From: an uncultured Dehalococcoidia bacterium
GTDB lineage: Bacteria; Chloroflexota; Dehalococcoidia; Lucifugimonadales; UBA3495
Length of the DNA stretch: 64,000 bases
Direction of reading: 5' to 3'
NCBI GenBank assembly: GCA_951813535.1
Contig: OX638345.1
Location: forward strand, 1,501,029-1,565,028
Shown here: one piece after another, positions 48,845 to 51,326 of the stretch
How positions within the stretch are numbered: the first letter of the stretch is position 1
Layout: every line of letters begins with the position of its first letter
Program-made: the position numbers and the translations under genes
The notes under the pieces: model-generated
Seen by the model: the letters and a program-made list of their open reading frames with translations, nothing else
What the model was told of the DNA's origin: nothing
Databases searched by the model: none

Positions 48845-49110
48845 AATTAACACCTCTACGGGGCCCGACTCGGCCCCAATCGACAGGCTTTCTGGATTGG
48901 CGCGAGTATAGCATAGGGCGTGGGGTGACACCCCCAACATGATGCCCGCGCTTGACCCGTACCAGGGTGGAACGATCTTCCGAAAGACGCCCAGGATCCG
49001 ATCCTTGCTCCGTCGGTCGACGATACCGCGGCGGCTTTTCAAATGGACGCTGCATTGCGACTTTGCTAAACTTGCGCGCAGCATTGGTTTTACCCTGAGG
49101 AGCGTCCACA

Positions 49111-50034
49111 ATGAAGAAAGTCGTCAGTGAAATCAGCGGTGTGGTTTTCAGCTTGCCCTGGCTGGTGGCCCGGGACGAAGGTCTGTTCGAAGCGGAGGGC
49201 ATCGACATGGAATTCGTCACCGCGGTCAGCAGTGGCCAGGTGACGCCCACTGAAAATCCGGAGGACGTCAACCCCATTCTCGGCCACGTGGCTTTCGAGG
49301 ATGCCCAGGTATCAATCTACCGCGCTTGAGAGGAAGGTCAGGTCCGTCGGGCCTATGAAAGCAAACAGGGCGCCCGCATCATCGCCCTCCGTTCCGCAGT
49401 CGCCACTCAGGCCATCCTGGTGCACCCGGACTCTCCGCACTTTTACCCGGGGACTCTGGGCAACAAACCGGTCGCCGTCCAGTTCCATGCCGGTTCCCAT
49501 TACGTTGCGCTTCGGCTGCTCTCGGGTTATCTCCCCGAGGACAAGCTGAAGCTGGTCCATTACGGCTCTCCCCAGTTCCGGTTTGAGGCGCTCATGAACG
49601 GCGAGGTTGCGGCCGCCGCCCTCATGGAGCCCTGGATCACCCTGGCCGAAAAGCTGGGTTGCCGGCCTGTCTGCGAGGGTCATTACCTGGGCGCCGAGAA
49701 CGCCAGCGACAACATGGACGAGGCAACTTTCGCTGCCATTAATCGCGCGGTCGCGAAGGCGGTGGACCGGATCAACGCCGACAAGCGCAGGTACCTCCGG
49801 TATCTCATCGATGAGCCGAGATTCGCCGCGGTGGCGTCGCGATTCGGCGGAATCACGCCCGAAGACTTCCATCTGCCCCGCCTGCGCTACTCCTACAACA
49901 CACCGTACACCGACGAGATAGTCGAGGACACCTACCACTGGATGGTGCGCTGGGGTTTGCTGGACGGCGCCGCCTGCAGCGCCGACCTCGTCGACAACCG
50001 TCTGGCTGAACCGGCTGTTGCAGCCGACGACTAG
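49111..50034 (+). CDS. NMT1/THI5-like substrate-binding-fold protein with in-frame TGA (selenocysteine candidate or nonsense mutation)
   Basis: One continuous frame of 308 codons interrupted only by TGA at 49327-49329 (codon 73). The N-terminal part (SEISGVVFSLPWLVARDEGLFEAEGIDMEFV) and the remainder (HPDSPHFYPGTLGNKPVAVQ, AAAALMEPWITLAEKLG, YRYLIDEPRFAAVA-like helices) make a complete type II binding fold. The residues around the stop read IYRA-TGA-EEGQVRRAY, and coding character continues unbroken through it. A 6-bp hairpin starts 10 bases after the TGA. No signal peptide and no ABC permease nearby. GAGGAG precedes the ATG. Readthrough as selenocysteine, a pseudogene and a sequence error are all possible. 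Confidence 0.6.
49340..49354 (+). promoter_or_regulatory. candidate bacterial SECIS hairpin
   Basis: AGGTCC (49340-49345), loop GTC, GGGCCT (49349-49354): six pairs including one U-G. The loop starts 16 bases after the TGA and begins with GU, which meets the known loose rules for bacterial selenocysteine insertion elements. A stem this short can also arise by chance. Confidence 0.35.
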
Positions 50035-50198: not shown

Positions 50199-50708
50199 AT
50201 GGCCGAATTGAGTCCCGCCCGCATTTTGGCGGAGTTGAAGAACAACGGCGCTACCCATGTGGTCTGGCTCCCCGATAGCGAGACCAACTTCCTCTACGTG
50301 TTGATGAGCGAAGAGCCCAGCATAGACCTGGTGCCCGTCAGTCGCGAGGGTCACGCTTTCTCCACGGCCGCTGGCCTCGCCGCCGGCGGAAAGAAACCCG
50401 TTATCCTCATCCAGAACACGGGCATGATGGAGTCCGGCGATTCGCTGCGCGGTTGGGGCCTGGGAATGAACGTTCCGGTGGTGATGATGGTCGGGTATCG
50501 AGGCTGGACCCGACACGGCGTTATCACCGACACCGCGGCCTTCTATACCGAGCGCTTTCTCCACGCGTTCAATATCAACTATTACCTGGTCGAATCCGAT
50601 GAGGACGCCGACCGCATCTCCATCGCCTTTGCCGAGGCGCAGCGGGAGAAGCGTCCCGTCGCGATCCTCGTTGGCGACGAGTACCACGGCTTCAACGTCA
50701 GCCGCTGA
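50199..50708 (+). CDS. TPP-dependent decarboxylase alpha subunit (sulfopyruvate decarboxylase ComD-like)
   Basis: Pyrimidine-binding half of a split thiamine-diphosphate decarboxylase, 169 residues. HVVWLPDSETNFLYVLM, PVSREGHAFSTAAGLAAGGKKPVILIQNTGM with the catalytic Glu of the PYR domain, and GLGMNVPVVMMVGYRGW match ComD of sulfopyruvate decarboxylase and the N-terminal half of phosphonopyruvate decarboxylase. The cofactor-binding half is encoded 27 bases downstream. The substrate is a 3-carbon 2-oxoacid with an acidic group, not further resolved. Confidence 0.8.
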   Translation: MAELSPARILAELKNNGATHVVWLPDSETNFLYVLMSEEPSIDLVPVSREGHAFSTAAGLAAGGKKPVILIQNTGMMESGDSLRGWGLGMNVPVVMMVGYRGWTRHGVITDTAAFYTERFLHAFNINYYLVESDEDADRISIAFAEAQREKRPVAILVGDEYHGFNVSR

Positions 50709-50735
50709 TCAACGCACATAACGGAAGTGACCATC

Positions 50736-51326
50736 ATGATGAAAACGGCGGAAATGCTGGAAATATTCAACAGGCATCGCGGCGACGCCGTGGTGATACC
50801 CGGCCGCGGCGGTCGGTTCTGGGTCGAGATGAGCGAGCAACCCAATCGAGACCTTCCCCTGGGCGACCCAGCCATGGGTGGTCACGCTTCTTTCGCCCTC
50901 GGCCTTGCCCTCGCCATCCCGGACCAGAGGGTTGTGTTGTTCGACTCGGAAGGCGACGTGCTGATGGGAATGGGCGCTCTGCCCACCGTCGCCGAGAAGG
51001 CGCCGTCCAACCTCTACCACTTCATGCTGGACAACGGCGTGTATGCCACCACCGGCGGGCAGCCCGTTCCCAACGCGGAGCAGATGGAATACGACGTGGT
51101 GGCCCAGGGTTGCGGCTATCCCGCCACCTATGCCATCGACAACCTGGAGGACTTCGCGAGCCAGATCGAGGAGATCCTCAGTCAGCCGGGACCGGTGTTC
51201 GTCGCCTTGAAAATCGACCCCGATATAATCAACGAGCCAATCAACGCCCGTCCCCAATGGCAGCGGAAGACCCGCAACCAGGCCGTCGCCGATATGCAGG
51301 CCGAACTGGGTATCTCAATCGGGTGA
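50736..51326 (+). CDS. TPP-dependent decarboxylase beta subunit (sulfopyruvate decarboxylase ComE-like)
   Basis: Diphosphate-binding half of the split decarboxylase, 196 residues. GDPAMGGHASFALGLALA leads to the TPP/Mg motif, here SEGDVLMGMGALPTVAEK followed by LDNGVYATTGGQP, which is the GDG...NN type with EGD and DN. ComE-like C-terminus. The ATG at 50736 has GGAAG 8 bases upstream; a GTG at 50727 is possible. It works with the alpha subunit encoded just before it. The substrate-binding-fold gene at 49.1 kb lies on the same strand. Confidence 0.82.
   Translation: MMKTAEMLEIFNRHRGDAVVIPGRGGRFWVEMSEQPNRDLPLGDPAMGGHASFALGLALAIPDQRVVLFDSEGDVLMGMGALPTVAEKAPSNLYHFMLDNGVYATTGGQPVPNAEQMEYDVVAQGCGYPATYAIDNLEDFASQIEEILSQPGPVFVALKIDPDIINEPINARPQWQRKTRNQAVADMQAELGISIG

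Follow-up and report, generated by a model that had tools for sequence, protein, structure and literature searches.

The reading frame

The window, the whole stretch of 64,000 nucleotides analyzed here, contains a gene with an in-frame TGA, which raises the question of whether this codon breaks the gene or encodes selenocysteine (Sec). The original prediction described a frame open from 49111 to 50034 except for a TGA at 49327-49329. Two explanations were proposed: a single-base nonsense mutation, or a selenoprotein, new and with the NMT1/THI5-like fold. Translation of the frame confirms this layout, and the sole internal stop is the TGA at codon 73, located between IYRA and EEGQVRRAY. The gene call is backed by GAGGAG at 49097-49102. 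The stop-to-stop frame is 311 amino acids long, compared to 307 from the ATG, and there is upstream room for only 4 codons. The features of the locus are as follows.

49097..49102, + strand: Shine-Dalgarno-like GAGGAG, 8 nt upstream of the ATG (from sequence)
49111..50034, + strand: predicted selenoprotein gene, 307 residues, Sec at codon 73, TAG stop (homologue alignment; purifying selection before and after the TGA)
49324..49326, + strand: Ala codon GCT adjoining the TGA on its 5' side (synonymous site fixed in 37 distinct sequences)
49327..49329, + strand: TGA, codon 73, putatively decoded as selenocysteine (frame translation and alignment with relatives)
49340..49354, + strand: candidate SECIS hairpin AGGTCC-GTC-GGGCCT, 6-bp stem, 3-nt loop starting with G, codons 77-81 (synonymous sites invariant)

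Conservation of the TGA and exchange with cysteine

Conservation among relatives puts the in-frame TGA beyond chance. Sixty relatives include 25 full-length homologues (67-100% identity, the window's own among them) that each carry one internal TGA, and the more distant homologues are mostly stop-free. In one alignment column, TGA is present in 25/25 of these sequences and Cys in the remaining 19/19, with no third residue; the motif of the 19 Cys-type sequences is C-E-W-G. The original prediction stated that the residue before Glu-x-Gly is often Cys, and the alignment at codon 73 bears this out, with Cys in every Cys-type relative. A scan of named contigs yielded 37 loci, nearly all titled as SAR202 cluster, Dehalococcoidia, or Chloroflexi. 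TGA is found at codon 73 in 35 of these; the other two are a contig-end fragment with TGA and a copy with TAA. The window's family has the gene or a fragment of it in 32 of 50 genomes, and its full-length copies have exactly one TGA (35/35), at codon 73 wherever the position was read out.

The TGA sequences form a single clade (support 98/100), corresponding to one change on the tree. All 22 relatives that fall outside this clade on the tree have Cys. Farther relatives within the phylum (L111-L113) have Cys at position 73 too, as do four homologues carried on plasmids, which come from Alphaproteobacteria and a haloarchaeon. This distribution indicates that Cys is the ancestral residue at position 73 and that the TGA clade arose once, in SAR202-cluster Chloroflexota. 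An ancestral Cys is also what a sequencing error or a nonsense mutation of recent date would start from, as TGC or TGT becomes TGA by a single change, leaving a pseudogene or an artefact. The probability of this explanation is negligible: the same TGA occurs in 35 independently assembled full-length copies of the family, and dN/dS stays low past the TGA. The retention of the codon across dozens of independent genomes refutes the mutation that the original prediction had offered as its second explanation. The gene is almost certainly intact rather than broken by a stop.

The exceptional copy is L108 (UBA2158), which has TAA at codon 73 (L108:6217-6219) and lacks ~41 residues further on. Sec is not encoded by TAA, and the L108 copy is decaying. 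A TAA copy at G461:C62:31807-32316 probably belongs to the same genome as L108.

Several other copies vary in number or placement. A second Sec copy, with 67-69% identity to the window protein, is encoded in L031, L041, and L042 (G019, G032, and G015, respectively) and also in G457 and G459; both copies have the TGA. The contig-end fragment L043 / L109 (G031:C126) has an extra in-frame TGA at codon 65 besides that at codon 73, which may be an error, decay, or something else. L093 (PBRM01000293.1) is labelled Gemmatimonadetes, and its gene nests among the SAR202 copies on the tree; either wrong binning or transfer would account for this placement.

Selection on the protein

Protein-level constraint is found both ahead of and past the TGA. 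The dN/dS of the codons ahead of it is 0.055; past it, the values are 0.083 (codons 74-103) and 0.069 (codons 104-300). The next start downstream of the TGA is an in-frame GTG at 49420. This GTG would permit a regulatory device in which a conserved peptide of 72 residues ends at the UGA, whether or not translation restarts downstream, and the hairpin and the fixed codon 5' of the UGA could influence termination too. However, the codons between the TGA and the GTG are constrained as protein and are among the most conserved, which argues that they are translated and against a stop and restart. Moreover, the Cys homologues are uninterrupted, and the TAA copy, which would still terminate, is decaying. 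Termination at codon 73 is therefore very unlikely.

C/U73, H130, R157, and R257 are among the residues that stay invariant across the Sec and Cys relatives, and they plausibly form an active site. Within 17 Sec-clade sequences, C184 and C289 are invariant as well; C73 is the sole invariant Cys once the Cys relatives are included.

The downstream hairpin

The hairpin had been placed 10 nt past the TGA, with its loop G after 16 nt, and this geometry is correct. AGGTCC-GTC-GGGCCT is the minimum-energy fold, at -7.6 kcal/mol. SECIS rules call for a loop of 3-9 nt whose first or second base is G, a stem of 4-16 bp, a distance of 16-37 nt from the UGA, and an MFE <= -7.5 (PMC13188914). The hairpin satisfies them with its loop GUC, 6 bp, 16 nt, and -7.6 kcal/mol. 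The claim that it resembles a bacterial SECIS element thus holds as far as the rules go; the hairpin alone is weak evidence, since 421 of the 1753 TGAs in the window (24%) pass the same loose rule (the PMC13188914 constraints as coded here). Shuffled sequences fold equally well (z -0.25), and the hairpin is not unusually stable. Folding energy and the SECIS rule were consequently set aside as uninformative in favor of conservation at synonymous sites. A test for compensatory pairs was impossible: the stem never varies across the Sec sequences, so it offers no compensatory changes.

The synonymous-site test covered 37 distinct Sec-clade sequences and 191 codons that have a conserved residue and synonymous alternatives. 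Among these 191 codons, only 72, 77-81, and 199 are fixed at the nucleotide level; at other conserved-residue codons the commonest codon averages 0.68. An invariant run of five codons arose in 1 of 20000 permutations. This result provides the decisive RNA evidence and indicates that hairpin codons 77-81 are under RNA-level selection. The invariant GCT at codon 72, immediately 5' of the TGA, perhaps reflects a context effect on UGA decoding. The hairpin is missing from the Cys relatives.

Selenocysteine machinery

The original prediction depended on sel genes in the genome. A tRNA-Sec (anticodon TCA), SelA, SelB, and SelD are all present, each above curated cut-offs. The SelD gene (G000:C1:1105770-1106690; L069) carries an in-frame TGA of its own. 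Like the window gene, selD has a TGA preceded by T and a downstream hairpin with similar stem ends (AGGACC..GGTCCT); it differs in its longer stem, its longer spacing, and its unrelated protein. A pattern built from the window gene and selD matches just these two sites in the 4.38-Mb genome. Because the pattern was drawn from both genes, only the absence of further matches is informative. Formate dehydrogenase, sought as a further Sec client, had no match above cut-off in the genome.

With the rest of the frame open, the in-frame UGA could also be read through as Trp or another amino acid without the Sec machinery. This is extremely unlikely: the relatives have Cys at the position and never Trp or any other residue, the genome encodes tRNA-Sec, SelA, SelB, and SelD, and the downstream hairpin is under selection. 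Together, the conserved UGA, the Sec/Cys exchange, the selection on the hairpin, and the machinery point to a Sec codon rather than a mutation, and the window gene is very probably a genuine selenoprotein gene. The UGA at codon 73 would be decoded as selenocysteine via tRNA-Sec and SelB, with SelB recognizing the hairpin that begins 10 nt downstream. Sec would thereby take the place of a Cys that all other relatives examined have. From these genomic data, Sec insertion in the cell is highly probable.

Two genomes of the same genus, G003 and G007, yielded no copy of the gene when searched. Both retain tRNA-Sec and SelB, which suggests that the Sec machinery serves other clients there.

Predicted fold and location

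An AlphaFold2 model was built from 38 sequences with Cys placed at 73 (mean pLDDT 90.3). It predicts the two-lobed type II solute-binding-protein fold of SsuA and Thi5, with a Z of 24.4 over 269 residues to SsuA. Residue 73 closes strand 69-73 and is followed by helix 74-83. Fold matches of the model are SsuA, nitrate- and bicarbonate-binding proteins, PqqT, Thi5, MqnD, and DszB. The best of these are solute-binding proteins; Thi5, MqnD, and DszB are enzymes. Sequence searches reached no cut-off for this fold, with Pfam NMT1 at 14.2 bits (cut-off 20.5) and NMT1_2 at 15.4 bits (cut-off 24.7), and the best solved relative had an E of only 0.06.

Strand 1 begins at residue 2, and only 4 more codons are open upstream of the ATG, leaving no room for an export signal. 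The criteria for an ABC substrate-binding protein are an export signal and a linked permease or ATPase; neither was found at the locus or in conserved neighborhoods. The original description of a binding protein therefore stands for the fold and fails for a role in transport. Since a signal peptide has no space and transporter genes are not conserved next to the gene, a cytosolic enzyme is more likely, and the most likely location of the protein is the cytosol.

Gene neighborhood

Across the loci compared, no conserved permease or ATPase neighbor was found. Downstream of the gene, 50199-51326 encodes a split TPP-dependent decarboxylase that resembles sulfopyruvate or phosphonopyruvate decarboxylase, with scores under the curated cut-offs. 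Of the named loci, just the 4 closest have these split genes next to the Sec gene. Neighbors elsewhere are a luciferase-like monooxygenase, a GMC oxidoreductase, a TPP enzyme, an S49 peptidase, and a CoA-transferase. In loci L076-L095, luciferase-like (FMN) monooxygenase genes recur on either strand in the roughly 3 kb that precede the Sec gene; this neighbor is recurrent but not uniform. The neighbors of the plasmid-borne Cys relatives are equally mixed. Assigning a function from the neighbors was rejected, as they are too mixed among lineages to rely on.

Proposed role of the selenocysteine

Most likely, the two-lobed SsuA/Thi5/DszB fold serves here as the scaffold of a cytosolic enzyme. The selenolate would sit at the start of the helix that follows strand 3, where residue 73 probably faces the cleft. 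There it would act as a nucleophile or a redox center toward a bound small molecule, and such a catalytic role, nucleophilic or redox, is somewhat favored. The substrate may be an organosulfur compound or another small organic anion, which is a guess and a doubtful one.

The protein could instead be a binder or sensor of a soft metal or an organic anion, with Sec as a ligand or redox switch. Solute-binding proteins are its best fold matches, and the Sec-containing solute-binding subunits SaoX and SaoB are tied to heavy metals or metalloids (PMC13188914). The invariant C184 and C289 of the Sec clade are possible partners. On the other hand, a signal peptide would not fit, no permease or ATPase neighbor is conserved, and among the Cys only C73 stays invariant across the Cys relatives. 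A binder or sensor is thus rather unlikely, and the enzyme reading is preferred.

Relation to known families

SaoX (NF040735) and SaoB (NF040727) are selenoproteins too and are named ABC transporter substrate-binding proteins (PMC13188914 Table 1). Their listed Sec motifs are UxP and CUxxT, in contrast to A-U-E-E-G in the window protein, and the NF040735 and NF040727 models do not match the window protein at E up to 1. By name they are transporter subunits, unlike the window gene, which has no conserved transporter genes nearby. SsuA/TauA (TIGR01728 family; 3ksj) is the best fold match, with a Z of 24.4 over 269 aligned residues, and gives a weak profile match of 20.9 bits. The window protein differs from it in being only 16% identical, far under the 163.5-bit cut-off, without a signal peptide, and with Sec/Cys73.

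Thi5 HMP-P synthase (4h67, 4esx) shares the fold with a Z of about 20.8 and about 12% identity. Lys62 and His66 of Thi5 probably lie at the same strand-helix junction as residue 73. The PLP lysine of Thi5 presumably stands against the conserved Cys/Sec of the window protein. Thi5 is an enzyme of this fold with Lys62 and His66 as catalytic residues (PMC10848271). The desulfinase DszB (2de2) also shares the fold (Z 16.1, 16% identity) and is an enzyme whose catalytic Cys is Cys27 (PMC12168087). The catalytic arrangement of DszB is Cys27/His60/Arg70; the comparison with the window protein was made at the level of the fold. Judging by residue ranges, Cys27, near the N-terminus, is probably not equivalent in place to Sec73.

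A 2026 inventory lists 119 prokaryotic selenoprotein families and subfamilies (PMC13188914). No such family is on that list, where the nearest by annotation are SaoX, SaoB, and BtuF, and the window protein reaches no model cut-off in NCBIfam 20.0. A search of the open-access literature found no paper that pairs a selenoprotein with SAR202 or THI5, and a search for selenoprotein with NMT1 returned matches with unrelated titles only. The selenoproteins are a well-known kind and this family is new among them, though an earlier report could exist outside the open-access literature. The first explanation of the original prediction, a new selenoprotein of the NMT1/THI5-like fold, is supported by the conserved TGA, the Sec/Cys exchange, the sel genes, and the predicted fold.

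Characterized prokaryotic selenoproteins are mostly thioredoxin-like (PMC13188914). The window protein adds a strongly supported family to them and indicates selenium use in SAR202-cluster bacteria. Tentatively, it would be a Sec enzyme on a solute-binding-protein rather than a thioredoxin-like fold, with Sec as a cleft nucleophile acting on small organics, and it may be a main Sec client beside SelD in these SAR202 bacteria. Standard gene calling would truncate these genes at codon 72. The family also draws attention to one Cys that is universally conserved, in groups ranging from Alphaproteobacteria to haloarchaea, among proteins annotated merely as "ABC transporter substrate-binding protein," and the Cys-type relatives so annotated may be enzymes. 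The Sec-for-Cys exchange offers a direct handle on residue 73. The window's genome also encodes a distant paralogue (G000:C1:145305-146099; L002) that is 33% identical and retains the Cys in a C-H-W motif.
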